Assembly (NCBI GenBank): GCA_943736015.1
Contig: OX031065.1
Coordinates: 35,044,427 to 35,108,426 of the forward strand
Origin: Tridacna crocea
Lineage: Eukaryota; Mollusca; Bivalvia; Cardiida; Cardiidae
Reading direction: 5' to 3'
DNA: 64,000 nt
Of the stretch, positions 355-62,852 are shown in pieces. Position numbers and translations under genes: made by a program. The notes under the pieces are model-generated. The model searched no databases and was not told where the DNA came from. It worked only from the letters and a program-made list of their open reading frames with translations. Numbering within the stretch: position 1 is the first letter of the stretch; each line of letters begins with the position of its first letter.

Positions 355-581
355 AAGTCTTTACCATACAATCCTGACTTTTAAGGACCCTAAAGAAGAA
401 GTCTTTGGAAAACACTCTTTGAAAAGGAGAAAATGCTGGTAATCAGCATTTTCTCCTTTTACCTCAGTGTTTTCTACTCTATGAAAGAGAGAAATCATCA
501 TTTCATCAATGTTTAATTTGTTGTCTGCAAATGCTCTCAGTTTGGTCACATCCCAAGTTTTGTCGTTTGGTAAAGAGTTAA
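355..581 (+). repeat. Family A hairpin MITE, full copy (family description here)
   Basis: Typical family A unit: about 225 bases starting TTAAC(C/T)C(A/T)TTACCA and ending TGGTAAAGRGTTAA. One arm reads ACACAATCCCTACTTTTGA then CCCTGAGAAAGAAGCC. The other reads GTCGTCTGCAAATGC, TTTCAATTTGGACCAG, TCTAAAATTTTGTCG. Between them is a long hairpin: GAAAACATTGTGGGAAAAGG, AGAAAATGCTGG and their reverse complement. TTAA edges and CCC/GGG ends fit piggyBac-type MITEs. Orientation '+' here means the ACACAATCCC arm comes first. This copy has a slightly mismatched stem. Confidence 0.85.
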
Positions 582-726
582 AGATGGTTGCTTTACATAA
601 TCTATAATCCTTTTCATATAAAGCAAGGGAAACTCTGCACTTTGATAAGTTCTGGTAAAGGTTTGTTGACCTCCTGGTGACCTAGTAGAAAGAGGGACAG
701 GGCTTTACTGTTGTGATAGGCATTTT

Positions 727-928
727 GTTATCAAATCAAACTGATCCCTGACAAAGAAGAGTTTAGAAAACATTGTGGGAAAAAGAGAAAATGCTGGTAA
801 TCTTTTCCCACAATGTTATCTACCCTTCACAAAACAACTTTCAAATTTTCAGTCACTTTTATTTTTTCATCTACAAATGCTTTCCATTTGGACAACCATA
901 GAATGTTGTGATTTGGTAATGAATTAAC
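727..928 (+). repeat. Family A copy, shortened hairpin
   Basis: Left arm decayed. The right half of the stem is shortened (GGTAATC then TTTTCCCACAATG), so the inner palindrome is largely lost. Ends GGTAATGAATTAA. Confidence 0.7.
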
Positions 929-2760: not shown

Positions 2761-2947
2761 AGAACTCCAGATAGAAGAAGACATTTCGATCTCAAAAGTG
2801 AAAATATGAATTGTTCTCAAGTAAACCCTATATTGTGGGTACTCAAAATAATCTCGTTAATACAATTCTAATGAGTACCCACAACATAGGGTTTGGAAAA
2901 GAAATAATGGATTTAGAAAACCATCGCTACCTCGTATCTGGAGCTCT
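2761..2947. repeat. Family C foldback element
   Basis: Ends are AGAACTCCAGATAGAAG and TATCTGGAGCTCT. The core is a 70-base near-perfect inverted repeat: AACCCTATATTGTGGGTACT ... AGTACCCACAACATAGGGTT. Other full copies lie at about 22362, 43158 and 51073. Confidence 0.75.
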
Positions 2948-3095
2948 GTGTAGATCTTTTATTACTGAAGATATTTACATCAAACTTTGACTAGTTGTTA
3001 AACTATCAAAATGGCAACCATAAAATAGGGGCAGGTAATTAATTATCAAAATATTTTTTCTTAGTTATGCCCTTTTTCTTTCTCGGAATTTTTAT

Positions 3096-3325
3096 TTAAC
3101 TCATTACCAAATGACAAAATTTTAGGTTTGTCCAAATTGAAAGCATCTGCAGACGACGAAATAAAAGTAACTGAAAATTTGAAATTTGTTTTGTGAAGAG
3201 TAGAAAAAACATTGTGGGAAACGGAGAAAATGCTGGTTACCAGCATTTTCTCCTTTTCCCACAAAGTTTTCTAAAGGCTTCTTTCTCAGGGGCGTCCAAA
3301 GTAGGGATTGTGTGGTAATGGGTTT
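3096..3325 (-). repeat. Family A copy
   Basis: The GACAAAATTTTAGG arm comes first; the hairpin is nearly perfect around GCTGGTTACCAGC; ends TGTGGTAATGGGTTTA. Confidence 0.85.
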
Positions 3326-3532
3326 ATTAAAGCATCTGCATCTTGGCATTAGCACACCCACATGCAATGCATTTGGGTGGTTTGAGTTTTCAATATTTTT
3401 TGAGTTGCTAACATTTTTCCTTCAGGCTCATTTTTACAGAAAAAGAAATAATCACACATACAAAATCCTTATAATATATAGATTTAAGTTGATTTTTCAA
3501 CTGGAACTGTGTGGCAAGTGGAGAATTTTCTT

Positions 3533-3984
3533 CTTTAAACCTTTGCCACACTATGATTACTTTTCAATGCCTCTGAGGAAGAATCCTTTTGAAAACAGTG
3601 TGGGAAAAGGAGAAAATGCTGGTAACCAGCATTTGCTCCTTTTCCCACAAAGTTTTCTACCCTATCAAAGCAAAATTGCACCATTTTTGCCACTTTGAAA
3701 TTGTTGTCTGCAAAGGTTTTCCATTTATATAGGTCTAAAATTTTGCTGTGTGGTAAAGTTTACCCATTACCATGCAATCCCTTCTTTTGACGGCCCTGAG
3801 AAAGAAGCCTTTTGAAAACACTATGGGAAAAGGAGGAAATGCTGGTAACCAGCATTTTCTCCGCTTCCCTCAGTGTTTTCTACCCTTCCCAGAACAAATT
3901 TCTATTTTAGTCACCTTTATTTTGTCGTCTGCAAATGCTTTCAATTTGGACCAGTCTAAAATTTTTGCGTGTGGTAAAGCGTTA
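3533..3984 (+). repeat. Two family A copies end to end
   Basis: Copies 3533-3760 and 3761-3984 abut at a single TTTACCC junction, in the same orientation. The first has a variant right arm shared with the copy at 41299. Confidence 0.8.
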
Positions 3985-4084
3985 AACACAACTCATTTCC
4001 GCGTCAGGTTTATTTGAATTTTTGTGCAAATGTGTTTGAGCTATATTCATGGAAACAGAGTTATGTCCTTCTGCAAATTGTATC

Positions 4085-4584: not shown

Positions 4585-4813
4585 AAACCCATTACTCCAT
4601 AGATACTCATTTCTACGAATTGCTTATAGGAGCAGTTAGAAAACATTGTGGCAAATGGTGAAATTGCTGGTCACGAGCAATTTCTCCTTTTGCCATAATG
4701 TTTTCTATGCTAGCAAAAGGTGTCCTATACACATATGAAACGGCTTCATCCTTGCTGTTATATAGGGTCAATTAGAGATACCATAGAAATGCCTTATTGG
4801 GTAAAGGTTTAAC
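4585..4813 (+). repeat. Family B hairpin MITE (family description here)
   Basis: Family B: same TTAACCCTTTAC ... GTAAAGGGTTAA ends as family A. Inner arms differ: CTCCATAGATACTCATTTCT on the left; GGTGTCATATACACATAAG and CTTCATCCTTGCTGTTATTT on the right. The stem is AACATTGTGGCAAAAGGTGA with loop TTGCTCGTGACGAGCAA. This copy ends about 24 bases before exon a of the zinc-finger gene. Confidence 0.8.
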
Positions 4814-4983: not shown

Positions 4984-7900
4984 GTTTGTCTATATTGTGA
5001 TCTCCCTTATCTCTTTACCACACAGTCCTGACTTTCAACAACCCTCAGAAAGTAGCCAATAGAAAACACTGTGGGAAAAGGAGAAAATGCTGGTAACCAA
5101 CATTTTCTCCCTTTCCCACGATGTTTTCTTCCTTTCCTAAAACAAATTCAAATTCTTTAGTCATATTGATTTTGTCGTCTGCAAAGGCTTTCAATTGGAC
5201 CAGTCTAAAATTCTGTTGTTTGGTAAAGAGTTAATGTGTTATTGTGATAGCCTGGAAAAAGTGGTTCTGTGCAATAAGAATTTCAGACCTGTCCAATTAG
5301 AACGAATTTGTTGAGGACAAATAAGATATAAGTGAAATTATCATTTTTGGCTTTGTTAGGGCAGAAGAAGGAAGAAATACAGCTTATTAGCACCATTTGC
5401 TTTTCCAAACTTTTTTTCAGAAGCATTCTTTGTGAGGGTCATTAAAATTCGGAACTGTTTGGTAAAGGGTAAGTGAAGAAACGTAATGCAGGTTTTGTTA
5501 CAAGACTGCCTTTGGAATATATTTGCAAATTAGTTCTTATTTCTTTTACTTTTAGATATGGATAGCTTTTTGTAAACAAGAACACTGAATACTGTTGTTT
5601 TTTTTTTTAAGTATAAATGTCACCATGTCATTCACTCTCAACTCTCTACCAAGCAACAAATCTGAAAACTCTTCCCAAATAAAAAGTTTCTGCAGACCAC
5701 AAATAACATGTGCTTCAAAAAGTGGAAATTGTCATTGAAGGGGTAGAAAACAAACTGAAAGCATTTGCAGATGAAAAATTCAATGTTGTGACAATTGTGT
5801 GTCTGATAGGGTAGAAAATGTTGTGGGAAATGGAGAAAATGCTGTTACCAGCATTTTCTCCTTTTCCCACAGTTTTCTAAAGCCTTCTCTTTCAGGTTTG
5901 TTATAAGTTGGGGTTGTGTGGTAAAGAATTAATATTTTATTTTTTAGAAACGTCCTTATCCAAAGTTGTTAAAACTATGGGTTTTGTGTTAAAATGGGAT
6001 AAACTTGTGCTTTATGAAAGAGTTTTGTCACACCATGATGGTAAATTTTTGCGAAGAAAACGTGGAAGAAAGAGCACAAAGGCGTGTAACAAGTATTTAC
6101 AAATTACATAATCATAATATATTATGATGTATGTTGATTATATAAATATTTCCAGTCGTGTTTTGTTCCAGTTTGTGGAAGGTCTGAATTTGCTTGTAAC
6201 TTTTGATGTAACTTGGAATTTTAAGAGATTATTTCCTGTGCAAGAATGGAATCCATTATAATGTTATGCATTTCTTAATTACTAAACCAGGGGAACATAA
6301 CGGTGCAATTGTATTGCTTATATTTTGATGTCACAATTCATTACAGTCCACAAAAGCATCATCTTCGCAAGCCAAGGCTGACGATTCACTAGGCTACTCT
6401 ACCCTTTGCTGATCAAGCTTGATTTTTACATTCACCCGATACGCTTTTTCATTGGATGCAGTCAGCTCTAGCTGCAACAAATGAAATCCCTCGTAGCATT
6501 TCATCTTTGATAAAAATAGAATAGAAGGTAAAACGTGGAAACCCACGTTGATATCTGCTTATCGCTTCATGTGTATTTGTAAGCGGTTTGTAAAACGAGA
6601 TTTCATTTGCTTTTAGAAATATGATGTAAAGGGGGGTAATCACCAGCATCCAATAGAGGGCACATGGCAGGAATCTCGAAATGGGGCTCAATCAGCCAAG
6701 GTAAGATCCACGTAGTGATCGTAAACTTGGCTCGCGAAGATGCAAAAGCATTTGAGGCAGTGTTTACATTCTTGATGTTGATTTGTCAGTTGTTAATCTT
6801 GTAGGTGAGAAGCCATACAAATGTTTAACCTGTATGAAGACCTTTGTTTCTAATGGTGTGCTAAAGGCCCATATCAGAATACACACTGGAATGAAACAGT
6901 ACAAGTGTTTGATGTGTGACAACTCCTTCTCGACCAATGGTAGCCTCAAACGACACATGTCAACACATAGTGATGTAAGGCCGTTTATGTGTCCATATTG
7001 CCAGAGAACATTTAAAACCAATGTGAACTGTAAGAAGCACATGAAAACACACAAGTAAGAAATTATTTCTTTTTAATCCTTAACCCTTTACCCCATAAGG
7101 CATTTCTATGGTATCTCTAATTGACTCTAAATAACAGCAAGGATGAAGCCATTTCTTATGCATATATGACACCTTTTGATAGCATAGAAAACATTGTGAC
7201 AAAAGGTGAAATTGCTTGTCTAGCCACAATGTTTTCCAAAGACTCCTACAAGCAATGCGTAGAAATGAGTATCTATGGGGTAATGGGTTAATTTTAGCAA
7301 ACATCAGAACAATGTGCTTGTAAAATCTGTTTAAATTTGCGTGCAACAGATTTACTTTTTACCACACAATCCCTAGTTTTAATGACCTTGAGCAAGAAGA
7401 CTTCTGAAAATACTGTGGGAAAAGGAGAAAATGCTGATACCACCATATTTTCCTTTTCCCACAATTCTTTCTTTCTACTCATGGACATGATCTACCCTTT
7501 TAGAAATATTTGCCTTGTGATCTGTAGATATCTTCAATAAGGACCAGCCTTAAAGGTAGATATAATTAGAATGACTGGAGTTCTTTTTACAAGAAACTGA
7601 GAAACAATATTTTAAGACGCTTCTTTGTGACATAAAAAAGCAAAACCTGGGTTGTCTGTTAACTCTGTAGCAAATGACAAAATCTTAAGATTTGTCCAAT
7701 CTGAAAACTTTTGCAGACAACAAATTAAAGTTGGCCTAAATTATGAAATCTGTCCTTGATAGGGTAAAAAACATTGTAAGAAAAAGAGAAGAATGAAAAT
7801 GCAGGATACCAACATTTCCTCTTTTTCCCACAATGTTTTCACAAGTTTTCCTATCAGGGTCATCAAAAGTCAGGATCATGGGGTAAACTGTTAAAGTGTG

Positions 7901-10900
7901 AAACCACCAAATAAATTCAAGACATTTTCAGGCAAGAACAAAAATGTTTTGAAGTGCATTAACCCATTACCATACAATCCCTACTTTCGACACCCCTGAG
8001 AAAGAAGCCTTTTGAAAATACTGTAGGAAAAGGAGAAAATGCTGGTAACCAGCATTTTCTCCTTTTTCCACAGTATTTTCTACCCTTCCCAGAACAAATG
8101 TCTTTTTTTCAGTCACCTTTAGTTTTTCGTCAGCAAATGCTTTCAATTTGAACTAGTTAAAAAGTTTGTCATCTGGTAAAGGGTTAAAAAGTTGGAATTG
8201 TGGTGTAATGGGATAAAATACCATTCATATCAACCACTGTAAACTTGCATTGGGTTTGGCCTGTGGCAGTGTCATTACAAAGAAAAACAATCAATTTTTT
8301 CACACAGGCATGAAATTGCAATGCAGACACTGTCAGAACAGGGTCACCTAGACCAACCGACTGAACAGACAGAAGAAGGGGAACAGGTTATTACCCAGGA
8401 ACCCTCTGAATATGTTGAAGAAGAAGCTATTGAGAATGATTTAACATTGGTTCAACAAGATCTGAACCAGACAACTGTTATATCACAGACTGACATGTCA
8501 CAGCCGACCATCTTGACGCAAGCTGGTTTTCAGGATGCACTTGGATTGACTACTACAACTATAGACCAGCAATTACTAAATCAGCAGGTTGGAAATGTAA
8601 CATTTTGTGTTTAATCCATTAACACACAATCCCTACTTATGACAACCCTGAGAAAGAAGCCTTTAGAAAACATTGTGGGAAAAGGAGAAAATGCTGGTTA
8701 CCAGCATTTTCTCCTTTTCTCACAATGTTTTTACCCTTCACAAAACATGTTAAATTTTCAGTCACTTTTATTTTGTTATCTACAATTGCTTTCAGATTTG
8801 ACAAGCCAAGAATAGTGTCGTTTGGTAATGAGTTAAATGTTTACCAAACAACAAAATTATAGACCTGTCCAAATTGAAAGCATTTGCAAACGACAAAATC
8901 ATTGTTACTGAACAAATGAAATTCGGTTTTAGAAGGGCAGACAACATTGTGGGAAAAGGAGAAAATGCTGGTTACCAGCATTTTCTCCTTTTCCCACAAT
9001 GTTTTCAAATGCTGCCTTTCTCAGGGTCGTCAAAAGTCGGGATGCTGTGGTAAAGAGTTAACTGTTTACCACACAACCAAGGTTTTTAATGACCCAAAAA
9101 ATAAGAAGGCCTTTAAAAACGTTTTGGGAGAAGATGAAAATGCTTCTGTCTAGCATTTTTCTCATTTTTCCACCATGTTTTCTGCCATATCAATGATAAG
9201 TTACTTATTTGGGCCACATTTGATTTTTCATGTTCAAAAGAATTCAATTCGAACTGGTTAAAGAATTTGTTATGTGCTGAAAAGTTAACTCGAACCATAC
9301 AATCCTTTGTTTTTACCACCCTGATGCAAAAGACTTTTGAAAATATGGAAAAGGAGAAAATGATGTTTACCTACATTTCCAATGTAACTGCCCTATAAGA
9401 GATAAATCCTTATATTTTAGCATTAAGAGTCCTGCATTTTGTCAAAAGTTGGCAAAAAAAATGATTTTTACCAAATGACAAAATTTTAGATTAGTCCAAA
9501 TTGTGCTGATATGATGATACTTTGATCAGATAGAAAACATTGTGGGGAAAGGAGAAACTGTTGGTTCCTAGCATTTTCTCCTCTTCACACAATCTCTTCT
9601 AAAGCCTCTTTCCATAGGATCATTCAATCCTTTACCAAACAGTCCCTGGTTTATACGACCCTGAGATAAAAGTCTCTTGAAAACATTGTGGGAAAAGGAG
9701 AAAATGCTGGTAATCAGTATTTTGTCCTTTTCCCACAATGTTTTCTACCCTTCCGGAAACAAATTTCAATTTTTGAGTTACGTTTATTTTGTCGTCTGCA
9801 AATGCTTTCAGTTTGGACCAGTCTAGGATTTTATCATTTGGTAAAGAGTTAATCATTTATATGCACTTCAGAAAACCATAATGCAAACACTGTAAGAAAC
9901 TGTAAAATCAATAAATCTATAAGCTCCATAATTATGGATGAAATTGACAGACCCCTACTTATTCATATTCTAATGAACCAACCAATGTTTTGCTTTAATG
10001 TGTTACCACACAGTAAAATTTTAGACCTATCCAAATTGAAAGCATTTGCAGAAAACAATTTCAAAGTGGCTGAAATGGTGCAATTTTGCTTTGATAGGAT
10101 AGAAAACTTTGTAGGAAAAGGAAAAAATGCTGAAAAACTTATTTTCAATTCTCTACAGATGTTTGGCCAACAACAGACCTTTACACAAAGTTTACTGACC
10201 GGTCAACAGAGTTTTCAAGTACAAGGATTGGGACAGCAACAGAACCAGTTTACAATTCAGGTAAAGTACCTCATTACCCTCGAGTGGTTATTGTTGATAG
10301 AGCGGTGGCTGTTCAGGTATGACAGCTAACTCGGATTTGACTGTATTTTGAACAATGTTGAACAACATTCCGCTTGCACAGAATGAGTTTATATTCTAAA
10401 CAATTTTTGCAAAACTAGTTACTTTTACCCTAGCATGCTAAACATTAATGATAATCAGATTTGTGACATATTTTCCTTTTATGAATGATGTGCATTAAGA
10501 TTTGACAGTTAGCAGGGACTTTGCAGTGGACTCTTTAACTCTTTACTCCATAGATACTCATTTCTACGCATTGCTTGTAGGAGCCTTTGGAAAACATTGT
10601 GGCAAAAGGTGAAATTGCTCATGACGAGCAATTTCACCTTTTGCCACAATGTTTTCTATGCCATCAAAAGGTGTCATATACACATAAGAAACAGCTTCAT
10701 CCTTGCTGTTATTTGTGGTCATTTAGAGATACCATAGAAATGCCTTATGGGGTAAATGAACACCTTTCATCCCCTTGTTCCAAGCTATGATCAAAATGCC
10801 AGAGGCAGCAGAACATCATTTTTAAAACAACAAAAAAGTATTATAATTACTTACTGGATAAAGGAAAAGACACAAAAAAAAAGAATTTTTATTCTACCTT

Positions 10901-26371: not shown

Positions 26372-26376
26372 AAAGA

Positions 26377-53800: not shown

Positions 53801-56800
53801 TCCAATTTTGACTAGTCTAAAATTATGTTGTTTAATAAAGAGTTAATAATGCTGAATGTTTTTCATTAATCCATTTAGGAGATTCACTGGAGAGCTTGCC
53901 ACAAAGGCAAATAGTGTGCTTGCTGTAGACTTCATGGAGAAATTTGTCACGAAGAATAAAGAAACCAATAATCACCACAAAAATGTCACCTTCAGATGTG
54001 AGGATGTAACAAAGTTAGACCTTGCAACTAACAGGTAAGTTGATTACTGGCCTGTATCATGTGTTATGCCACATATATATCAAACATACCCTAAATCAGC
54101 TTACAGTGATCTTTGTCTACTCTCTGTACAAAAGAAACAGTGTTATTCTTTCGCACAGAATGTAGACAAAGATCATTGCGAGCTGATTTAGAGTGCCCCC
54201 CCCCCTCCTCAAAGCATAAAGATTTACTATTTTTAAGTTTTAGTTACTGCAGTTAAAATCAATTATTGGATGTGAAACAGGATTTTTGCTCAGATGTTTT
54301 ATAGAACATAAATTTATGGTCTATTGGTTTATGAGAACATTTGATTTCTTTCTAATTTCAAATCAAAGGATGTAGAAAAGTTGATTATTTGATATGTAGC
54401 ATCGTCTAATATCAAGTTTGTCCTAGGGACTGAGATGGGCCCTTTCGAAGCCTTCATGGATTACATTATTCACCGCAGTTATCATTTAGAAGAAAGTTAG
54501 TTTTGTAGAAATAAGTAATTACTGAAATAATTCATAGGCTATGGTTTTTGAACTTTGTTTGGTGAAATATCTGTTCCAATTATGCTTGTAAAATCAATTT
54601 CAGACTGAAGTCAAGGTCACTGTCACTAGCAGCAACAATAACTAAAGTATTGAAATATAAAAGAAGTTTAGAATGTACAAAAACAGTAGCAGAAAATTTG
54701 CAAAAAGTTCACTGTTCAGGGTGTTACGGGAGACCACTCCTTCCTGCATGGCATACTCCCGATTTAAATACAATACCTGGCTGCTGCGTCAGGGAGATAT
54801 CTCTTTGGCTCAGTGGTTATGGTATTGGCCTTGCGTCCGGGAGTTCGGGGTTCGAATCCCGCTCGGTACCTTATTTCTGCCATGCATTTATTCATTTGTT
54901 TCTTTGTTACGGACTTCGTTCGTAAGAAGGGTGACACATGTGTAAGTTACAGCTTTGGTAAAAATGAAAGTCACATACTAATTTTAAACAAAATAAAAAA
55001 GAAGCTGTGAACCCTTTCCCACACAAGCCCATGTTTTAACATCCCTGGGGAAGAAGGCTTTAGAAAAAAATTGTAGGAAAAGGAGAAAATGTAGGTAACC
55101 AGCATTTTCTGCCTTTTCGGCATTGTTTTCTTTTCTTACAAAGGATAAATCCAGATTCTGAGTGGCAATTTCTCTGTTGTTTGTGTATTTTGAAATTTGG
55201 ACATCTCTGAAAGTGTATCATTCAGTAAAGGTCAAAGTGCTAAGCATGTAGGGAACTTACTTTGCATACTAAAGTTAAGCCACGGTTGGCTCAAACGAGT
55301 ATTGTGGTATCATCATTGTCCTCCTGTTATCATTAGGTTCTTAATATTAATGAGGTCAAGGAATTGGTGAAATCACATGATTGATCATGGATATGACTTT
55401 ATGGAGCAAAAAATGTGAAAAGAAAAAATAACCCTTCATAATTATTTGACTTTTTAGCAAAGAAAGTGTGCTTAAGTTGTTTGATGATACATAATACATA
55501 AAATATGTGATATACAGACATGTTTCTTATACGTATAGGTTGCAAAAGTCTAAAATTTTTCTTATGATTTTGCCGCTGTTTATCCTTAGAGACTGTTTTG
55601 CAACTACAGTTGACTTTGCGGCCAGTATAGATGAGCAAAGATGCAGTACAAACTGTGCAGCCAGATCTTTTATCTACAACGTTTGCTCTGCTGACATTCT
55701 TTAGACAAGAATAGCCTTGAAATTGTTCTTATTAAGGTGTTATTCCTAGACAAAAAATTGATATTGGGTTTAGTAGTCTGTAAGAGAAAAATTGATAAAT
55801 AAATATTGGTAAAATCACAATTCCAAAACAGCTATCCTCTATTTAACCCATTACCACCCAGTCCCTACTTTTGACGACCCTGAGAAAGAAGCCTTTTGAA
55901 AACATTGTTAGAAAAGGAGAAAATGCTGGTTACCAGCATTTTTACCTTTTCCCACAATGTTTTCTACTCTTTACAAAACAAATTTCAAATTTTTAGTCAC
56001 TTTTATTTTGTCGTCTGCAAATGCTTTCAATTTAGACCAGTCCAAATTTTGTCGTTTGGTAAAGGGTTAAACTCATGTAAAATGGCCAAGTTATTCATTA
56101 ATTTTTTGTATATTCTCAGTTATGACCTTGTTTTTTCCAACTGGTTGATGATGTATCTAGAGGACGAAGAGACGCAGACTCTTGTGAAAAAAGAGTTGTC
56201 ATGGTTACGGGAAGATGGTTATCTGTTTGCGAGAGAATCTTGTGTGAAACAGTCAGGTATCTATGCTTCTCAGTTATTTGTAGAGTTTATATTTATAGCT
56301 AGGAAGTGTTTCCAGCCAGCTGGGGAGTCTTTCCTTTCTGTAACATAATGCCAAACATCTTCTTGGGAAGAAAGCTTCCCAAAGTATGGTCATGAGGGCA
56401 TGGGATTGTCTAGATATGGGTTAAACCTCTACCACTCAACAAAAGTTTGGACTCGTCCATATTGAAAGCATCTCAAAACATGATCATGAAAGCATGGGAT
56501 TTTCTGCTAGTAGACTTATTCCGTATTAAAAGTACATGTATTTATAGAGGATACAAAGAATTAACGTGAATCATTGGATGAAATTTATGTTTGACGAAGT
56601 AGAAAATATTGTGGGAAAAGAAGAAAATGCTGGTTATCAGCATTTTCTCCTTTTTTCTCAATATTTTCAAAAGCCTCTTTCATCAAGATAATCAAAACTT
56701 TGGGTTGTGTGATAATGGTTAAACCCACAGAGCCTTAAGCTAATCTGAACTTGTCCGTCCTCAATATAGTGACTGCTAACCTGTGGTTCTTGTGGTTGAC

Positions 56801-59800
56801 ATGTGTCACAACTGTCTACTTGAGACATAGATATATCACTGGATGAAAAAAGTGACAAAAATGGAAGTTTTTGTAAGAAATCAAAATGCCTTTCTTGAGT
56901 TATTTTGAAAATAATCTGGGAAAATTTTTTTTTTTTTCACACAATGCTTTCAAATATACTGATAGCTATCATAACATACACAAAACTTTGTTTTGTGTAG
57001 AATTTTACCCGAGATAATTTTCATGAATTATGTTTTGCAGGTAACAAAAAACGTGGTCAGAATCCAACAAAATATCGAGATCCTCAAGTGTATCTGGCAA
57101 TATTTACTACTGTCAACATTCCAACAGAAAACGAAGATGAAGAATTTGGCTTTGAACTAGTTTTGTCACGTCCTGTCTATTCCTATATAAAGGTATTCAT
57201 TCTCTACCCTACAGTTCTCTCTTGAAACAGCCCTGAGTGAAGAGGCCTTTGTAAACATTTCGAACCCAGTTGAGCCAATTTTTGTTTTTTTAACTCTTTT
57301 CCACACGAGAAAATTTTAGACTGGTCCAAATTGAAAGCATTTGCAGATGACAAAATAAAGGTGACTGAAAAATTGAAATTTGTTCTTGGAAGGGTAGAAC
57401 ACTGTGGGAAAAGGAGAAAATGATGGTTACCAGCATTTTCTCCTTTTCCCACAGTGTTTTCAAATGGCTTTTTTCTCAGGGGCACCAAAATTAGGGATCG
57501 TGTGGTAATGGGTTAATGCTATTTTTTGACTCTTACCTGTGATGCATTAGAGAAAAGTAGTCAGTGGCTCGAAAAGAAAGCTGTGTCTGTACTGGTAGGA
57601 GAGTCAGGAAACACATGTCTAGGCGCACTGACCACAGGCACTTGGTCCAGTAATTTGTTTGGTATCTTGTAAGTAAATATAGACAAGGGGTCAAACATGA
57701 CCAAAGGGCAGATATTACCGGATTTGAATTTAGGCCCAATTACAAAATCAATTTTGATTCAATTTTGTCATGAAATGTACTAACTCACAGCTAAACGAAT
57801 ACGATGATGCCTCAGATTATAACTATAATCAATCTGTTTACCAAACACAGAACGAGATATCGAGCAAATTAGTGTCAATTTTGAAGGTCAGACACAACCA
57901 TGAAACTGGGACACCACTCTACTTTCAGGGCTAAATGGCACATCTCCACCATTGACAGCCGGTTTTCCTACAAAGCATGGATTAAAAGCATGCTAATAAA
58001 TAGCTTACAGATTACTTTTCCTGTCGATATTGATCAACCAGGGAACAAAACCAGTTATTAACTAATTATGAAATGTAAATGCCATTAAAAGGGGACTTTT
58101 TTCAAACTGACAGGGAGAATGGCGGTCGCCATTTTGGAGGAAGTGAAAAATTATGTACACTCTGATTTCAAGCATCTGAAAGATTGGTTGGCCCAAGATA
58201 CACATTGGAAATTTCCTAATAGATAAAAGGGAAATCTTTTAATGAAATGGAAGTTGTCAATTATTATGGTCTGAAATTGACGGTTGAGCAAAAACTTTCC
58301 ATTGATAGTTTAGGCTCATTGTCTGAAACACATTGGTGGCATTCACATTATTAGCAAATAATGGCAAAAACATGTATTAGAAAAAGAAAAGTTATTGGTT
58401 GGGTCACCTGAAACACATTTTCTTTTCCTAATACTTAACCCATTACCACACAATCCATACTTTTGACACCCCTCAGAATGAAGCCTTTGGAAAACATTGT
58501 GGAAAAAGGAGAAAATGCTGGTAACCAGCATTTTCTCCTTTTCCCACATTGTTTTCTACCCTTTACAGAACAAATTTCAAATTTTCAGTCACTTTTATTT
58601 TGTCGTCTGCAAATGCTTTCAATTTGGACCAGACTAAAATTTTGTTGTTTGGTAATGGGTTAAACTCTTTAGCAAACGATATACATTTAGAGTCACTTGT
58701 TCATCTTGGAAGCATTTGCAAATGGTATTACGGCTCAGATGATAGGATTTGCCCATGATGGAGTAGAAAGCATTGTGGAAAAAGGATAAAATGCTGGTCA
58801 CCAGCATTTTATCTTTTTCCCACAATGTTTTCCAAAGCTTTACTCTTAAGGGTCATTAGAACTCAGGAATGTTTGGTAAAGGGTTATTGGTAAAGCCACA
58901 CTCACCAACAAATCTTTGGCATTATACCATCTCATAATTTCAAGAGTGGGTGTCTGAGTTTTTCGGAAAGTGTGTTGCTGCAAATTAACCCTTTACCACA
59001 GAATCCCAAGTTTTAACAACCTGATAAAGAAGTTTTTTTTAAAACACTGTGGGAAAAGGAGAAAATACTGGTAACCAGCACTTTCTCCTTTTCCTACAAT
59101 GTTTTGTAGCCTATATGAAACATAAACCATTATCTGGGCTAAATTTAATTTGTAGTCTGAAAATGCTGTCATTTTGGTATGGTCCAAAACTTTGTTGTCT
59201 GGTAAAGATTTGTACGGGCCAAGCCCCGATAGTTCAGTGGGTGACGTAGGACAGGAATTGAGAAAAGGGTTCTGTGGTTTGATTTCCCAGCTCAACCAGT
59301 TTCCTTCGAGGATTGATGATGGCATGGGATCGTCCGAGGATTTATGATAGTTATTGCCTCAGATATCATTTCTCTATCACTGCCGATCATTCCTTGACAA
59401 TTTATGTGTGGGAAAGCAGCCACTGGCTTCTTAGTATACTGTGTGAAGTATAGGTAGCAAGAACCCTAGAAATTTTATTTAAAGATTTGGATTTTACAGT
59501 AAGAACCCCAGCAAGGTATGGATCATCAATTTTAAATGCATCGTTTCTGTACAAAAACCAATTTTGTGGGTACTCATTTGAATTGTTTCTTTGAGACAAT
59601 TCTGTTGAGTATCCATAACATAGTTTTAACCACACAATCACTACTTTTGATGACCCTGAGAAAGAAGCCTATCGAAAACATTGTTGGAAAAGGAGAAAAT
59701 GCTGGTAACCAGCATTTTCTCCTTTTCCCACAATGTTTTTTACCCTTCACAAAACAAATCCAAATTTTCAGTTACTCTTATTTTGTCATCTGCAAATGTG

Positions 59801-62135
59801 TTCGATTTGGACAAACCTAAAATATAGTCATTTGGTAATGAGTTAAGATTTGGATTTTACCGTAAGAACCCCAGCAACGTATGGATCATCAGTTCTAAAT
59901 GCATTGTTTCTTTACAAAAGCCAGTGTTGTGGGCACTCATTAGTATTGTCTCTTTAAGACAATTCCATTAAGTATCCACAACATAGGTTTAAATGAAGAG
60001 TTACAGAGAAAGTACCTTTTGGACCCCAATATACTTCCCTGTATGCCTACCTATGCAATATATTTCTGTTTTTGAGATTAGATGAAAGACAACAAACATC
60101 AGCAGATATGGTTACTTCAGAAGACCAGAAGGCGCAAACAAAGTAACCATGGGTTCAAAACATTCCAAGAGTTTTTAGACAACCAGCAATACTCCAGTAA
60201 TGGTATACTCCGATATGAGAAGGTATTTGGGCGAACATTTGTCAGTACTGGTGGTATTGACACAACAAAGGTGACTTAATAATTTTTCCGCACATCTGCT
60301 GTATTTATTGTGGTTAGAAATGGGTTTTATATTTTATAAATGCTGATGCCTCTGAAAAAGTAAGATTAGGAAAATATTGTATGAAAGAAAACTTGTCACA
60401 AGGAATTTCTCTCTTTTCTACAATGTCTTCCAAATTACTCAAAAAGGCAGTTTTTTCTCCTATTTAACCTTTTACCACACAATCCTGACTTTTAACAACC
60501 CTGGAAGTGAAGGCGTTTGAAAACATTGTGGGAAAATTCTTAAAAAAAATAACTTTTTCCATCACATTTGCTATGTTGTTTGCAAATGCTTTCAATTTTG
60601 ACCAGTGCTTTTTTTTTTCGTTTATTAAAGAGTTAACCCTTTTAAATCTCGACTTTTAACGCCCCTGAGAAAGAAGCAGCTTGTCTGTCCATGTGTCTCC
60701 ATCTGTGCGTCCGTCCGTGTGTCCATCTATGTACAAAATACTAGTAATCTTGTGTCATAAACTCCTCCTACAGTTTTGCTTCTATTGTATTGAAAAGTTG
60801 TGGATACATTTATTGTATACTGAAGTTGTAAAAGATGCAGTTTTCAATCATCTACTCCCACTGATTCCAGGGTAATATCCCCTTGAACTTACAAAATATT
60901 TTATTAAATTGCCTGTTTCTGTCAAAGCGCTGGCTGGGGTATTAAGTCACATTCAGTGACAGCTCTAGTGTTTCCTTCCAGGATTTTGTTTCCAGACTGA
61001 ATCTGCAGAAAGATGAGGTTGTACTAGATGTAGGTTGTGGTATTGGTGGAGGTGCTTTCTACATGGTCAAGGTATTTTTTGTCATTTATCTTCAAGTGAA
61101 CAGTTTCTTTAACCCTTTACCACACAACAAATGTTAAGATCTATCCAGATTGAAAGCATTTGTAGATGACAATTTCATTGTGGGTAAAATGATGCAATTT
61201 CTCTTTAGTAGGGTAGAAAACTTTGTGGGAAAAGGAGAAAATGCTGGTTACCAGCATTTTCTCCTTTTCCCACAATGTTTTCACAAGGCTTCTTCCTCAC
61301 AGTCGTCAAAAGTCGGGATTGTGTGGTGAAGGGTTTGACAATTCTTTCAAAATGGTCTCTCATGTAAGGGCATAAAAAATGATACAGTATTTTGATAGTA
61401 AGCCTCATAGAAATAGCTAGATTAAAGGACCCATGACATACATACATCTAGAATATTTCTCTGTACATCAACCATTGAAGATCCAAGATCCTGTCCACTC
61501 TGATCTTGATCTACACTGTTTTCAAAAGTCTTTGAACAGTTGGAAACAGTATTTACAAAAGCTTACTTCTTTAGAGTAAAAAAAAAAAAAAAAAGCAGAT
61601 TGCTTGGTAAAGGTTTACTCTTCATCTTCATCGTCAATAAAGACAGTTTTAATTTTGCTTTGAGGATAAGTAGGTTAAGAGTAGTACTGTTGATTCAATC
61701 CTTTTCTAAATGAAAATGAACAAGGTTTACCTCGATATCAAGATGAAATGGAGTAAGCCACATAAACTCTTTCCATAAAATTGTATAGACCATTTCTTCA
61801 TCATGTAGTCGATGAGCAGGGCATGAAGTATTTTTTTATTAACTCTCATTGTTCTGTGCAGTCAAAGGCAGTGAGGTATTTTTTTTTTTTATTCTTATGT
61901 CTTTCTAACTGTTTCTCCATCCCTCTTTCCTTCCGTTTATCTAATTAGTGTCTTATCTGTAGAAAAGCAAGTCTGTTGTGGAGGAGGTGGCAGGGAGGAG
62001 ATAATATAGTAAAGTAACTTGTTGACATGTGTTTTATTACAGGAATATGGTGTCAAGGTAATAGCTATCGATTTATCCTCAAACATGATACAGATTGGAA
62101 TAATGAGGGCAGAGGAAGAGGGAGTTAGTGCAGAA
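35760..62135 (+). CDS. PMT: Tandem-domain phosphoethanolamine N-methyltransferase, 5' part (8 exons visible)
   Basis: Eight exons with consistent phases give 351 codons, open at the 3' edge. The family (EC 2.1.1.103) methylates phosphoethanolamine three times with S-adenosylmethionine to phosphocholine, in the cytosol. Domain 1 shows SAM motif VELGAGIG (residues 72-79), acidic [18 protein letters not shown] and RESCVKQSG. The inter-domain part has ILRYEKVFG and [11 protein letters not shown], close to plant PEAMT wording. Domain 2 shows [10 protein letters not shown] (305-314) and [10 protein letters not shown]. Plant enzymes are about 490 residues, so some 140 lie beyond the window. In nematodes the two active domains are divided between PMT-1 and PMT-2; here both motifs look intact in one chain. 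Confidence 0.88.
35821..37374. other. First part of PMT intron 1
   Basis: T-rich run at 35848, a GTGCAGTCCGGGCAGGCC hairpin word at 35951 related to 4200, CAC microsatellite at 36122, and an isolated family A right arm at about 36690-36790. No exon recognised. Confidence 0.4.
37385..38173. mobile_element. Long-TIR foldback transposon, Mutator-like by target duplication
   Basis: Arms of about 190 bases (37385-37575 and 37985-38173) are close inverted copies: TACCTTCAGTCTGAAGGTGT ... ACACCTTCAGACTGAAGGTA. Identical 10-base flanks GTCAAAGCCC (37375-37384 and 38174-38183) show a target duplication. The interior of about 410 bases has one 79-codon frame (minus, 37696-37935) with no known domain, so the element is probably non-autonomous. 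Class assignment is inferred from TIR length and duplication size. Confidence 0.8.
38455..38680 (-). repeat. Family A copy
   Basis: Full, with near-perfect hairpin around GCTGGTTACCAGC and TTAGGTAAAAAGTTC end. Confidence 0.8.
38681..39092. other. PMT intron 1 sequence with decayed family A copy
   Basis: Family A remnants at about 38935-39090 (CCCTGAAGGAAAACGC, GTTGGAAAAGAAGAAAAT). The rest is unassigned. Confidence 0.4.
39102..39359. mobile_element. Short foldback transposon with 9-base target duplication
   Basis: Arms of about 60 bases, nearly perfect: CATCCTCGGATACCCCGGGG ... CCCCGGGGTATCCGAGGATG. Flanks ATTTTTACC at 39093-39101 and 39360-39368 are identical. The interior of about 140 bases is non-coding. 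A second copy starts at 63940. Confidence 0.82.
39415..39735 (-). repeat. Dispersed repeat block Y, inverted copy
   Basis: The reverse complement matches 48130-48468 (TATACAGATATAATACTTTTGC, here in short words, ATTTATAATTGATAATTCTAG). No block X is attached. Confidence 0.7.
40218..40993. repeat. Three family A copies
   Basis: 40218-40425 (+), 40469-40694 (-, stem variant CACTGTGGG/CCCACAGTG), 40793-40993 (-, decayed). Confidence 0.75.
41095..41525. repeat. Two family A copies
   Basis: 41095-41296 (-) has lost the falling half of its hairpin. 41299-41525 (+) follows at once. Confidence 0.78.
41526..41889. other. PMT intron 1 sequence
   Basis: AT-rich, with a family A left-arm fragment at about 41835-41885 (GCAAAATGTTAGACCTGTCC). 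Nothing else recognised. Confidence 0.35.
41890..42452. repeat. Family A copy, A fragment and family B copy
   Basis: 41890-42117 is A (+). 42118-42248 is a minus A fragment. 42249-42452 is B lacking most of its left stem (AACATCGTGACAAGCAATTTC). Confidence 0.75.
42742..42915. repeat. Foldback MITE with GGGCCTGTATTCACC ends
   Basis: Ends GGGCCTGTATTCACC and GGTGAATACGAGCCC, continuing inward as ATTCTTGAGAATATCCTT against AAGGATGTTCTTAAGAAT. Interior contains CTGATTGGCTAAACC. Unrelated to families A-C. Confidence 0.7.
43158..43348. repeat. Family C element, best copy
   Basis: Ends CAGAGCTCCAGATAAGAGGG and CCCTCTATCTGGAGCTCT. Central inverted repeat CTATGTTGTGGGTACTCATT ... AATAAGTACCCACAACATAG. 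Confidence 0.8.
43349..43950. other. PMT intron 1 sequence, apparently unique
   Basis: CpG-containing stretch (for example CGCACGTACG-like words near 43575) with no exon recognised. It stands out as repeat-poor inside a repeat-dense intron. Confidence 0.3.
43951..44300 (-). repeat. Family A copy with exact 124-base tandem duplication
   Basis: 44001-44124 and 44125-44248 read as identical. Each carries part of the left arm and a whole hairpin (GCTGGTGACCAGC loop), giving two hairpins in one element. Confidence 0.88.
44401..44612 (+). repeat. Family A copy, left stem missing
   Basis: The left arm runs directly into CCTGGTTACCAGCATTTTCTCC; the rising stem is mostly deleted. Confidence 0.7.
44931..45900. 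repeat. Large inverted repeat
   Basis: Left arm about 44931-45160, right arm about 45673-45900. Matched words include TTGTCTGTGCATGTCATATT, TTATATGACGCATCACTAGC, CAGACTGTAATATTACGCTC and TCTCTAAACTGCTGATCATA with their complements. A family A copy (45337-45560) lies in the interior. No target duplication seen. Confidence 0.75.
45337..45560 (-). repeat. Family A copy inside the large inverted repeat
   Basis: Full arms. Stem degraded (GGAGATATGCTACTTACCAAC). Confidence 0.75.
46057..46426. repeat. Two family A copies
   Basis: 46057-46285 (+) is full. 46289-46426 (-) is truncated at the left and in its right stem. A lone minus left arm precedes at about 45987-46056. Confidence 0.75.
46531..46647 (-). 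repeat. Family A deletion derivative without hairpin
   Basis: The left arm (ATTTGCAGAAGACAAAATAA) joins directly to the right arm (GGCTTCTTTCTAAGGGTCC), removing the hairpin. Confidence 0.72.
46763..47838. repeat. Cluster of family A copies
   Basis: 46763-46990 (+), 46990-47260 (-, left stem present twice at 47093 and 47128), 47452-47650 (-, decayed), 47637-47838 (-, left stem deleted). Confidence 0.68.
48130..48468 (+). repeat. Dispersed repeat block Y, copy 2
   Basis: Here Y precedes X (at 48889), the reverse of the order at 26377-27295. A family A copy (48463-48688) lies between them. Confidence 0.7.
48463..48688 (-). repeat. Hybrid family A copy with family B-type loop
   Basis: A-type arms and outer stem (CACTGTGGGAAAAGGAG), but the inner stem and loop read AAATTGCTCGTTACGAGCAA, as in family B. 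The hairpin, about 48565-48634, is close to perfect. Confidence 0.88.
48889..49431 (+). repeat. Dispersed repeat block X, copy 2
   Basis: See block X copy 1. Its right end, TAAATACCCACCTTTAACAA, runs into a family A arm. Confidence 0.75.
49425..49885. repeat. Two family A copies
   Basis: 49425-49627 (+) lacks its outermost left end and is fused to block X. 49650-49885 (-) is full with a near-perfect hairpin. Confidence 0.8.
49886..50453. other. PMT intron 1 sequence with decayed family A fragments
   Basis: Fragments at about 49900-49990, 50095-50120 and 50190-50320 (GGAAAGAAGAAAAGGCTGCC). No exon. Confidence 0.4.
50454..50966 (+). repeat. Two family A copies
   Basis: 50454-50674 lacks part of its left arm. 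50738-50966 has both outer stem arms changed together (CATTATGGG / CCCACTATG, partly compensated). Confidence 0.8.
50969..51310 (+). repeat. Family A half copy split by family C
   Basis: The right half of an A copy (from TTTCCACAATGTTTTC) is broken at GGACA by the family C element and resumes GGACAAGTCTTAAAATTTTG at about 51289. Confidence 0.65.
51073..51272. repeat. Family C copy nested in family A
   Basis: CAGAGCCCCAGATAGAGG ... CTTATCTGGAGCTGTG, core AACCCTATGTTATGGATACT ... GTACCCACAACAGTGGGTTT. Confidence 0.75.
51746..52240 (-). repeat. Family A copy interrupted by a SINE
   Basis: The A halves are 51746-51913 and 52185-52240. The falling stem is intact up to CCCACTATGTTTCGAAAGG. Confidence 0.78.
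51914..52184 (+). mobile_element. tRNA-derived SINE inserted in family A
   Basis: A box TGGCTCAGTGG at about 51926-51936 and a degenerate B box GGGTTGGCTACC at about 51968-51979. A body with GTGAGAAAAGTAGTTTGTGG and AGGAAACACATAGGTGCATC and an A/C-rich tail follow. Flanking AAAGGTC at 51907-51913 and 52185-52191 is the target duplication. A related body lies at 57540-57650. Confidence 0.75.
52241..52465 (+). repeat. Family A copy just upstream of PMT exon 2
   Basis: Stem carries two compensated changes (ATTATGG..AAGAAGAAAA / TTTTCTTCTTTTACCATAAT). Confidence 0.82.
52509..52683 (+). CDS. PMT: PMT exon 2: start of methyltransferase domain 1
   Basis: Acceptor TTTCCTTCAG ending 52508, donor GTAGGT at 52684. 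Encodes [15 protein letters not shown], then the LEEMMLDS substrate-side motif typical of this family and the SAM loop ELGAGIG. Its last codon is split (GG|G). A family A copy ends about 45 bases upstream. Confidence 0.92.
52789..53846. repeat. Family A copies and SINE tail in PMT intron 2
   Basis: 52789-53015 (+), 53208-53371 (-, rising stem deleted), 53617-53846 (+, near-perfect hairpin). A type-2 SINE tail is at about 53395-53585. The last copy ends about 32 bases before the exon 3 acceptor. Confidence 0.72.
53879..54034 (+). CDS. PMT: PMT exon 3: domain 1, post-motif I
   Basis: Acceptor CCATTTAG ending 53878, donor GTAAGT at 54035, phase 2 to 2. RFTGELA continues the SAM loop. [11 protein letters not shown] carries the acidic residue expected to bind the ribose of SAM. 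The exon ends [10 protein letters not shown]. Confidence 0.92.
54060..54200. repeat. Small inverted repeat in PMT intron 3
   Basis: CTAAATCAGCTTACAGTGAT, CTTTGTCTAC, TCTGT pair with ACAGA, GTAGACAAAG and ATCATTGCGAGCTGATTTAG (about 54091-54190), followed by a C run. Confidence 0.6.
54795..54880 (+). repeat. tRNA-like SINE head
   Basis: A box TGGCTCAGTGG at 54806-54816 and consensus B box GGTTCGAATCC at 54849-54859. The T stem has two mismatches and no acceptor stem pairs, so this is not a working tRNA gene. Confidence 0.65.
55010..55240 (+). repeat. Decayed family A copy
   Basis: Left arm good (CCCTTTCCCACACAAGCCC); right arm eroded. Confidence 0.65.
55241..55841. other. PMT intron 3 sequence, nothing recognised
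   Basis: Contains GTCTGATC-type words shared with other bivalve-like repeats but no clear element. Open frames here show no protein features. Confidence 0.35.
55842..56070 (+). repeat. Family A copy ahead of PMT exon 4
   Basis: Near consensus. Ends about 50 bases before the acceptor at 56119. An open frame runs through the element and into exon 4, which is coincidental. Confidence 0.82.
56120..56256 (+). CDS. PMT: PMT exon 4: domain 1, DLVFSNW motif
   Basis: Acceptor TATTCTCAG ending 56119, donor GTATCT at 56257, phase 2 to 1. [17 protein letters not shown] is a hallmark of the family, followed by [17 protein letters not shown]. The frame stays open well past 56256 into intron DNA, but the next exon joins exactly in phase 1. 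Confidence 0.92.
56420..56725 (-). repeat. Family A copy with insertion
   Basis: The left arm is followed by unrelated bases (56475-56580) before the hairpin (GTGGGAAAAGAAGAAAATGC). Right end TTGTGTGATAATGGTTAAA. Confidence 0.65.
57041..57192 (+). CDS. PMT: PMT exon 5: end of domain 1
   Basis: Acceptor TGTTTTGCAG ending 57040, donor GTATTC at 57193, phase 1 to 0. [19 protein letters not shown] corresponds to the NPTxYR-containing stretch of plant PEAMT. The exon has no in-frame ATG, so it is recognised by homology and phase. It ends RPVYSYIK. Confidence 0.9.
57290..57515 (-). repeat. Family A copy
   Basis: Subfamily with CACACGAGAAAATTTTAGAC left arm and CACTGTGGG/CCCACAGTG stem, shared with the copy at 62150. 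Confidence 0.85.
57530..57690 (+). repeat. SINE body fragment
   Basis: Matches the body of the SINE at 51914: AGAGAAAAGTAGTCAGTGG and AGTCAGGAAACACATGTCTA. Confidence 0.5.
57691..58436. other. PMT intron 5 sequence, nothing recognised
   Basis: About 750 bases without a repeat I can name; no exon-like frame. Confidence 0.35.
58437..59205. repeat. Three family A copies
   Basis: 58437-58664 (+) and 58663-58885 (-) abut at one GGTTAAACTCTTTAGC junction. 58987-59205 (+) follows. The second has the compensated stem change GATAAAATGC/GCATTTTATC. Confidence 0.82.
59214..59470 (+). repeat. SINE-like repeat, type 3
   Basis: tRNA-like head (GATAGTTCAGTGGGTGACG, GGTTTGATTTCCC) and a tail shared with 17391-17625. 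Confidence 0.5.
59484..59992 (+). repeat. Direct repeat flanking a family A copy
   Basis: 59484-59626 and 59847-59992 match throughout (GATTTGGATTTTAC, TAAGAACCCCAGCAA, GTATGGATCATCA). Each ends in a family C core hairpin (GGGTACTCATTTGAATT ... AGTATCCATAACATAG). A family A copy (59629-59846, +) fills the gap. Confidence 0.8.
60082..60270 (+). CDS. PMT: PMT exon 6: inter-domain linker
   Basis: Acceptor GAGATTAG ending 60081, donor GTGACT at 60271, phase 0 to 0. [14 protein letters not shown] closes domain 1, then comes a basic stretch (KTRRRKQ). [20 protein letters not shown] and [16 protein letters not shown] follow, the most conserved bridge of tandem PMTs. The acceptor has a poor pyrimidine tract. 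Confidence 0.9.
60465..60640 (+). repeat. Family A deletion derivative
   Basis: Left arm and outer stem (AACATTGTGGGAAAA) join directly to the right arm; the inner hairpin is absent. Confidence 0.68.
60982..61071 (+). CDS. PMT: PMT exon 7: SAM motif of domain 2
   Basis: Acceptor CCTTCCAG ending 60981, donor GTATTT at 61072, phase 0 to 0, 30 codons. It carries [18 protein letters not shown], the glycine-rich SAM loop of the second methyltransferase domain. No ATG start and only 90 bases, but the family match is unmistakable. Confidence 0.92.
61110..61336 (-). repeat. Family A copy
   Basis: Starts about 38 bases after PMT exon 7. Near-perfect hairpin. Confidence 0.85.
61337..62030. other. PMT intron 7 sequence
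   Basis: A-run at 61580, T-run at 61876, and GATCCTGTCCACTCTGATCTTGATC words related to those at about 40090-40130. No exon. Confidence 0.35.
62043..62135 (+). CDS. PMT: PMT exon 8: domain 2, last visible exon
   Basis: Acceptor TTTATTACAG ending 62042, donor GTAAGT at 62136, phase 0 to 0. [19 protein letters not shown] has the Asp expected to contact SAM ribose in domain 2. A family A hairpin begins about 14 bases after the donor. The next exon is not in the window. Confidence 0.92.
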
Positions 62136-62149
62136 GTAAGTGTATTATC

Positions 62150-62852
62150 TTAACTCTTTACCACACGAGAAAATTTCAGACTGGTCCAAATGGAAAGCAT
62201 TTGCAGATGACAAAATAAAGGTGACTGAAAAATTAAAATTTGGTTTGGGAAGGGTAAAAAACACTGTAGGAAAAGGAGAAAATGCTGGTTACCAGCATTT
62301 TCTCCTTTTCCCACAGTGTTTTCAAAAGGCTTCTTTCTCAGGGGCGTCAAAAGTAGGGATTGAGTGGTAATGGGTTAAACAAGTTGCAAAAGGGTTTAAC
62401 TCTTTACCACACTGTAGCAACTTTTAACAATGCTGGGAATGAAGCCTTTTGAAAGCATTGCGGAAAAGGAGAAAGTGCTGGTAACCACCATTTTTTCCTT
62501 TTCCCACAGTGTTTTCTACTCTTCCCAAACATATTCTAATTTTTCACTCACATTCATATTGTTGAATGTTTATGCCTTCGATTTGGACAAGTCTAAAAAA
62601 TTTTCATCTGCTAAAGGGTTTACCGTAACTCTTTACCAGATGACAAAATTTTAGCCTTGTCTAAAATGAAAGCATTTGCAGATAACAATATTAGTGTAGC
62701 TCAAATGGTGCAAATTTTCTTTGATAGGGTAGAAAACATTGTGGGAAAAGAAGAAAATGTTGGTTACCAGCATTTTCTCCTTTTCCCACAATGTTTTTAG
62801 AAGGCTTCCTTCCCAGGGTCGTTAAAAGTCGGCTTTGTGTGGTAATTGGTTC
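62150..62852. repeat. Three family A copies after PMT exon 8
   Basis: 62150-62380 (-), 62397-62622 (+), 62628-62852 (-), with gaps of 5-16 bases. Confidence 0.82.

Follow-up and report, generated by a model that had tools for sequence, protein, structure and literature searches.

A very abundant TTAA-associated MITE family in Tridacna crocea, its probable piggyBac helpers and the apparent constraint on its palindrome

Why a few families of miniature inverted-repeat transposable elements (MITEs) reach enormous numbers is still an open question, and sequences inside the elements have been proposed as one factor. Here we describe a repeat family that is packed densely into a 64-kb stretch of the genome of the bivalve Tridacna crocea (contig OX031065.1, positions 35,044,427 to 35,108,426; called the window throughout), whose consensus carries TTAA at its edges and a long internal palindrome, and we compare the changes that arise in this palindrome after insertion with those that are passed on to further copies. 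The closest precedents for such elements are the CMITEs of corals and the human MER85 elements. CMITEs, as presented in PMC2872659, resemble the present family in their TTAA duplications and tandem arrays, partly in their CC[C/T]T ends, and in having a piggyBac-like parent with which they share little past the ends. Their internal region is also better conserved between families than the terminal inverted repeats (TIRs), a pattern that in our elements holds for the palindrome and not for the whole internal region; the CMITE authors suggested a role of that region in transposition, and added that its conservation may be due in part to ascertainment bias (PMC2872659). CMITEs differ in being about 100 bp long and in their numbers, 18 to 737 copies per family being expected in A. 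millepora, and the word stems palindrom and hairpin are absent from the main text of that paper. Homology with the 60-bp CMITE core can be rejected, as that core had no detectable similarity to the present MITE (its score was reached by 115 of 200 shuffles).

MER85 and its parent PGBD3, from primates, offer a structural likeness: TTAA, short TIRs, and one internal palindrome in the MITE that lies 96 bp from the 3' TIR (107 bp separate ours from the right edge), while PGBD3 holds three copies of the palindrome (PMC3459987) and so resembles the candidate helpers described below. The MER85 palindrome differs in being 16 bp long, imperfect and placed 3 bp from the 5' TIR, in a family of 889 copies; it binds the transposase in vitro, and the same account gives a drop in binding of 80% on loss of the internal palindrome and of 60% on loss of a TIR, and reports that partial deletion of an internal repeat abolished transposition of Trichoplusia ni (T. 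ni) piggyBac (PMC3459987). In T. ni piggyBac and in piggyBat palindromes are likewise protein-bound sites, recognised according to the piggyBat study by dimers of the cysteine-rich domain, but they are 19 bp long or imperfect and about 14 bp long, and do not form one long internal palindrome (PMC11707139). The T2-MITEs of Xenopus share the TTAA target, long-lived MITE families and recent activity, and are set apart by AGGRR ends and a presumed Kolobok transposase (PMC6004289). Abundant MITEs have been reported in bivalves, with no family of this kind named in the accessible part of that report (PMC10294476). As far as we have checked, the family is new in its long perfect palindrome, its extreme copy number, its pair of putative helpers and the comparison of a site before and after insertion; no paper naming it was found among the open-access papers searched, and since Dfam and Repbase lay outside this search it may be catalogued there. 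The exact end string TTAACCCTTTACCA turned up, within the open-access text that could be searched, in just one paper, on gastric cancer.

Number, layout and ends of the copies

A profile built from 12 seed copies and run over the window with nhmmer gave 140 non-overlapping matches at E 1e-3, and 133 at E 1e-5 once the profile had been trimmed to the element, the latter covering 38.5% of the bases. Sixty-five copies are near full length (37 on the + strand and 28 on the - strand) and are 71-93% identical to the consensus (median 85%, mean 0.835), and 89 copies have at least 60 of the 66 arm positions aligned. The original prediction, which had counted 80-90 copies by eye, therefore fell short for all matches and came close for those with a nearly complete hairpin; it was right in giving both orientations and a length of 220-230 bases, the consensus measuring 229 bp with both TTAAs counted. 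This consensus starts with TTAACCCTTTACCACACAATCCC, continues into a perfect 67-bp palindrome at 56-122, made of 33-bp arms and a one-base loop, and closes with 107 bp ending in GTTTGGTAAAGAGTTAA. A central hairpin of about 30 bp had been foreseen, and of that description the arm length stands whereas the position does not, as the palindrome sits left of the centre. Folded as single-stranded DNA, the copy at 58435-58663 reached z = -9.2 against 200 shuffles.

The inverted repeats at the ends are short and imperfect, about 14-18 bp counting the TTAA (for example TTAACCCATTACCACAC / TTAACTCATTACCACAC in the copy at locus L031), beside a range of 12-19 bp in the coral piggyBac-like MITEs (PMC2872659). 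The end strings first proposed, CCCTTTACCA and TGGTAAAGGG, occur exactly only 7 times each in the window; related, variable ends are present, the left mostly reading TTAACCC[T/A]TTACCACAC and the right mostly GTTTGGTAAAGAGTTAA. At the left the terminal motif is CCCTT in the consensus and CCCAT in younger copies, the second of these being among the motifs given for piggyBac (PMC10813416). At the right it is CTCTT in the consensus, which departs from the CC[C/T]T-type motif of piggyBac/TTAA MITEs; one of the piggyBac elements described below, auto-2, has CTCTT at both ends. TTAA stands at the left edge in 35, at the right edge in 41 and at both edges in 21 of the 65 near-full-length copies. At their mean identity some 33 of 65 would be expected at each edge had all copies once begun with TTAA, so that the counts are consistent with full use of TTAA followed by decay, and agree with the TTAA edges originally proposed; conservation in the profile alignment of the copies also falls off at the TTAA. 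A tblastn search with 30 piggyBac proteins gave no match in the window, in L001-L008 or in L039-L042, which together with the length of 229 bp marks these repeats as short, gene-less MITEs.

Searching the whole assembly (1,048.8 Mb) for copy number, a check that the original prediction had proposed, gave 199,253 occurrences of the exact 29-base core of the palindrome (99,347 forward and 99,906 reverse), and none of the same pattern read backwards as a control. Eighteen of these cores lie in the window, about 1.5 times the 12.2 that 64 kb of the genome hold on average, and seven lie in four 10-kb stretches chosen at round coordinates, which hold 36 MITE matches and are covered by them to 3, 17, 17 and 35%. 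Scaling by 169 matches per 25 cores over 104 kb leads to about 1.35 million matches in the genome and scaling by length from the four stretches to about 0.94 million, both totals being rough because fragments are counted and little sequence lies underneath. To our knowledge, some 200,000 exact 29-base cores place the family among the more extreme single MITE families.

Insertion at TTAA and piggyBac elements with matching ends

Copies of a piggyBac group of the same genome (family A), compared with each other as paralogues, served as an insertion trap. The copy L031 holds a 227-bp MITE with TTAA on either side, and at the same place L033, L014, L015, L018 and L013, whose sequence agrees in other respects, have one TTAA (GGC-TTAA-ACCAACCC). 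The empty site was thus present in five of the six paralogues examined, the sixth, L023, being without the search string, and this test, which had been named in advance, came out in favour of piggyBac. The insertion at L031 is fairly recent, given an identity of 98.7% between L031 and L033 over 2.2 kb. In the window, three neighbouring pairs of copies have a single 4-bp junction in common, and of 64 pairs of near-full-length neighbours 6 either overlap by 3-4 bp or are at most 4 bp apart; the common TTAA junctions (for example within 8611-9288) indicate that fresh copies can insert at the terminal TTAAs of older ones.

The piggyBac transposase family (PF13843) has at least 118 matches in the genome, and the ends were examined first in the best 30 of the 118 with 1.5-kb flanks and then in 13 further regions. 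Two kinds of element have ends resembling those of the MITE. The first, auto-1, is 7,203 bp long and was found in L056 (466-7668) and L057, the two being 99.9% identical; it begins with TTAACCCATTACC and ends with GGTAATGAG, which is followed by TTAA in L056 and not in L057. In its left end the motif TTTTGACGCCCC recurs with a 35-bp period (at 27, 62, 97 and 132, either exact or altered by a single change), beside which may be set the GCGGGA of the left end of piggyBat at 11, 55 and 99 (PMC11707139). The young MITE of L031 has the exact TTTTGACGCCCC at 27, where the consensus has TTTTAACGACCC, and agrees with auto-1 at 19 of 27 ungapped positions (14-40), a result equalled by 2 of 100,000 shuffles. 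A search with a two-motif pattern returned eight copies of auto-1, seven of them starting with TTAACCC and having flanks that differ among copies, and one MITE (L060) in which the motif TTTTGACGCCCC is duplicated at 33-bp spacing. The second element, auto-2, is 6,376 bp long (L067/L068), was seen in one copy and has a TIR, TTAACTCTTTCCCACACA, that is perfect over 18 bp with the TTAA included. Of the 38 positions at its left end 34 agree with the MITE consensus, and over positions 18-38 agreement is 19 of 21, which none of 200,000 shuffles reached. The left ends of both elements (L056:466-7668 and L067:1765 onwards) are composed of about four head-to-tail 35-bp units.

The auto-2 transposase (L024) is 80% identical in protein sequence to that of auto-1, and both match the Pfam domain DDE_Tnp_1_7 (PF13843), with 2.6e-88 and 3.8e-89; that of auto-1 also aligns over most of its length with the solved piggyBat (9e-40) and piggyBac (4e-36) proteins. 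On these data auto-1 and auto-2 are related autonomous piggyBac elements with ends matching the MITE, as had been expected of an autonomous parent. Taken with the TTAA duplication, which is clean at L031, the matching ends and the transposases also support the assignment of the repeats themselves, in agreement with the original prediction, to very abundant non-autonomous piggyBac transposons, here judged from sequence. TTAA is also used by Sola3. Kolobok likewise duplicates TTAA (PMC9587614), and a MITE from either superfamily could carry no more than a likeness to piggyBac. We find this origin scarcely credible, although no search aimed at Kolobok or Sola transposases was made, because the elements with matching ends encode piggyBac transposases and because the MITE ends begin with CC or CT and not with RR, membership of Kolobok in particular being rejected on its 5'-RR..YY-3' termini (PMC9587614).

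Several MITE-like palindromes are found inside each of auto-1 (L056 4113-4281 and 6605-7266) and auto-2 (the 3' region in L067/L068), three of them in each case between the transposase and the right end. Common descent of the MITE segments in the two 3' regions is not claimed, since the global alignment score, far above that of 20 shuffles, comes from a match that consists largely of MITE copies. Other piggyBac groups were set aside on account of their different TIRs (family A TTAACCCTTTATATAC, family B TTAACCCTAGTCATGC, family C TTAACCCTTTCAG and L011 TTAACCCATTTATGCCT); L013-L019, L021-L023 and L032 represent other young families with closely similar copies and the TIRs TTAACCCTTTATATAC or TTAACCCTAGTCATGC. 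Several of the best 30 loci gave no TIR at the 1.5-kb width, and seven of those are auto-1. None of the stretches taken from the 13 further regions contained a MITE-ended element, and three of these regions (L044, L048 and L054) hold relatives of auto-1 whose ends may fall outside the stretches. L044 and L048 form a piggyBac pair 86% alike with a common block 3' of the transposase (2826-3067 and 3022-3273, respectively), in which MITE palindrome arms are separated by a spacer. Pieces of piggyBac transposases, many with stops, are clustered locally at C8:56.71-56.76 Mb and C13:4.48-4.61 Mb.

Shared and singleton variants of the palindrome

The variant spectrum was taken from 60 main-lineage copies after removal of copies less than 2% apart; duplicates were removed in the same way for the second-lineage, window/outside and 162-copy analyses and kept in the pairwise, cluster and flank-correlation analyses. 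Variants confined to one copy are as frequent in the palindrome (0.716 per site) as in the flanks (0.689), with 0.893 in the TIRs. Of variants present in at least 8 copies there are 2 in the palindrome (67 sites), 37 in the flanks (122 sites) and 8 in the TIRs (28 sites), so that widely shared variants are about ten times rarer in the palindrome than in the flanks. Fisher tests of singleton against shared variants gave p = 8.8e-5 for palindrome against flank, p = 0.012 for palindrome against TIR and p = 0.53 for TIR against flank, values to be read with the reservation that in related copies an inherited variant counts as a single event only approximately. The depletion is repeated in 33 copies from the window only (p = 0.0015), in 31 from outside it only (p = 1.2e-5) and in a second lineage of 14 copies (p = 0.0035, rising to 0.028 when the threshold is lowered); its direction is the same at thresholds of 4, 6, 8 and 10 copies and in all copy sets (p from 1e-6 to 0.028), and in 12-bp bins it is located on the palindrome.

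Comparisons between copies give a similar picture. In 56 young pairs (flank divergence 3-10%) the palindromes have diverged by 0.05-0.07, similar to the flanks, whereas in old pairs (flank above 50%) divergence is 0.23 in the palindrome and 0.36 in the TIRs. Since singletons are as common as in the flanks and shared variants are rarer, the constraint appears to lie on the copies that propagate, with none after insertion. In our reading, the copies that propagate are under purifying selection for the sequence and symmetry of the palindrome, which looks to be under tighter constraint than the TIRs in those elements; the hairpin is indeed unusually well kept, as had been noticed at first, and the reason for it can now be narrowed to the propagating copies.

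A low divergence of the palindrome could also be an artefact of the search, since the profile used to detect and align the copies is itself rich in palindrome sequence: copies whose palindromes are badly damaged are more easily missed, and aligned palindrome positions decided which copies counted as near full length. Such a bias should deplete singletons as well, and the singleton comparison, which controls for the demand for a mostly aligned palindrome, shows no reduction. With the palindrome taken out, the profile gave 414 matches, of which 39 span the palindrome junction: 11 of these have a palindrome of nearly full length, 21 hold a partial one (counted as a group; of 18 that were listed, 14 or more come from just two segments inside auto-1 copies) and seven have lost much or all of it, each by its own deletion. 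Among seven clusters formed at a flank distance of 30%, a value set by hand, the consensus palindrome is perfect in four and has one mismatch in a fifth. Clusters 38, 34 and 28 have identical 67 bp despite diverged flanks, cluster 1 carries four symmetric substitutions, cluster 10 has two and one mismatch, and in two clusters of three members the arms are mismatched at 3 and at 9 positions, the latter cluster being a single copy in three overlapping loci (L005-L007). We consequently attach very little probability to the artefact.

Symmetry of the changes bears on a further explanation, in which the arms are corrected against each other by quasi-palindrome template switching, or the copies are made alike by gene conversion, and the palindrome has no role in transposition. 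Paired changes across the arms do occur. The only two palindrome variants found in at least 8 main-lineage copies are at the paired positions 7 and 59, where joint changes were expected in 3.3 of 162 copies and observed in 14 (Fisher p = 7e-9), and paired changes are clearly above expectation also at 11, 13, 19, 20, 25 and 30. In the same direction point an element of about 280 bp at 22848-23128, made of right half, palindrome and right half with TTAA at both ends and halves that by eye seem to belong to different lineages, and a perfect 124-bp tandem duplication at 44001-44248 with a whole MITE hairpin inside. Nevertheless, with singletons accumulating at similar rates in palindrome and flanks correction is not seen acting on resident copies, and correction alone predicts shared symmetric variants per pair about as frequent as shared flank variants per site, whereas just one paired change reaches 8 copies in the main lineage. 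Frequent exchange of halves at the palindrome is rejected, as distances in the left and right flanks correlate at 0.68, not below the value for two parts of one flank (0.59). Correction or conversion as the full account is thus improbable in our judgement, if the least so of the alternatives weighed here.

Several observations weigh against a role of the palindrome in transposition and against descent of the MITE from the helpers seen here. Beyond the TIR the MITE right flank agrees with the auto-1 right end at 14 of 46 ungapped positions, its likeness to the right end of auto-2 is limited to the TIR as far as compared, and at the ends of both elements no palindrome was detected with the MITE profile outside the internal MITE-like segments; the palindrome and right flank of the MITE are therefore not from the auto-1 ends as seen here, and helper ends that do without the palindrome put in doubt whether the transposase needs it. 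Most palindrome variants in the pooled copies are one-sided, and the symmetric changes cluster in few lineages and hence are not independent events. The 39 flank-only matches that cross the junction, with partial palindromes in 21, also count on this side, as do the palindrome arms themselves, where TIR-like sites were sought and the outcome was unconvincing (fractions of 0.01 to 0.93 in ten comparisons).

Copies along the window and a possible role of the palindrome

The coordinates given here are for the 48 copies at least 80% identical to the consensus, two junction-sharing copies (9058-9288 and 58661-58887), the right-right chimera at 22848-23128 described above and six copies of cluster 1; the other 15 near-full-length copies and the fragments are left out. 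Among the copies with common junctions, that at 3535-3762 (+) meets the copy 3759-3985 (+) in a 4-bp TTTA, three copies at 8611-8836 (+), 8833-9061 (-) and 9058-9288 (+, 72% identical to the consensus) are joined by common TTAAs, and the folded copy 58435-58663 (+), with TTAA at both edges, overlaps 58661-58887 (-) by 3 bp. TTAA at both edges is also present on the + strand at 7959-8187, 25768-26001, 26173-26373 (201 nt), 27419-27646, 46056-46284, 50453-50673, 50735-50968 and 55843-56070, and on the - strand at 30089-30321, 57290-57516 and 62150-62378. Further copies lie on the + strand at 5007-5234, 9624-9852, 12949-13178, 18128-18352, 18514-18741, 21901-22129, 33295-33524, 40216-40423 (208 nt), 41299-41525, 41889-42121, 44399-44611, 52241-52468, 52788-53018, 53613-53846, 59624-59846 and 62396-62622, and on the - strand at 3096-3326 (91% identical to the consensus), 12266-12498, 13568-13801, 13916-14119 (204 nt, with an internal deletion), 15121-15348, 31308-31532, 38454-38680, 40468-40696 and 45336-45562. 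The hairpin is partly lost at 41095-41294 (-, 200 nt) and 47637-47839 (-). By lineage, 18803-19031 (-) belongs to the TTAACCCTTTCCCAAACA lineage (cluster 28), 49650-49884, 61109-61337 and 62625-62853 (all -) to cluster 34, and 48461-48688 (-), with symmetric palindrome changes, to cluster 10. The second lineage (cluster 1), with the layout of the main lineage and symmetric substitutions in the palindrome, is found on the + strand at 4586-4811, 24500-24725, 30525-30755, 31000-31229 and 33549-33775, and the palindrome of a further cluster 1-like copy, also with symmetric changes, at 10579-10663 (+).

Seven of nine translated pieces of the window that were tested match C2H2 zinc fingers, all seven within 6756-25491, and the exons lie on the + strand at about 6756, 12001, 14365, 17046, 19032, 23328 and 25087, so that the MITE copies of this part sit between the exons of a zinc-finger gene, perhaps one like ZNF236. 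With some copies so placed, and with a strand that folds into a very stable hairpin, the palindrome might be thought to be kept for a function of the host, such as a small-RNA hairpin or a regulatory element. Selection at the level of the host would however be felt by resident copies, and in these the palindromes decay at the rate of the flanks; moreover, no Rfam family reached its gathering threshold in the window; we hold a host function to be most improbable. The palindrome core also had no match in the viral contigs searched.

Taking these results together, we think it highly probable that the family is a piggyBac MITE moved by the resident piggyBac clade or a close relative, with the palindrome as a cis-acting part. 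The matching ends, the shared subterminal motif and the empty site suggest that transposases of the 6-7-kb elements of this clade, or of a close relative, would most likely cut the MITEs and paste them into TTAA. The 67-bp palindrome would then belong to the mobile unit as a cis-acting part, in which changes, to judge from the variant spectrum, would lower the chance that a copy yields further copies, and once inserted it would decay like other sequence. By analogy with the shorter palindromes of T. ni piggyBac, piggyBat and MER85/PGBD3 it would most likely act as a site of transposase binding or synapsis; because 67 bp far exceeds the known bound palindromes, a cruciform that unites both ends, or several sites, may be considered instead. 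The stronger proposition, that piggyBac transposition requires the palindrome as a third cis-site, held more tightly than the TIRs and lying behind the extreme multiplication, we regard as rather unlikely. As MITE-derived palindromes stand in the helpers between the transposase and the right end, the parasite may even have given its helper this site.

The variant spectrum allows decay after insertion to be separated from selection among the copies that propagate, and in doing so it addresses, for the present family, the doubt about ascertainment raised for the coral CMITEs. On this evidence the 67-bp segment probably has a function, and the palindrome would seem to aid the spread of the element. 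Because candidate helper transposases with open frames are present in the same genome, this role of the palindrome would be directly testable.

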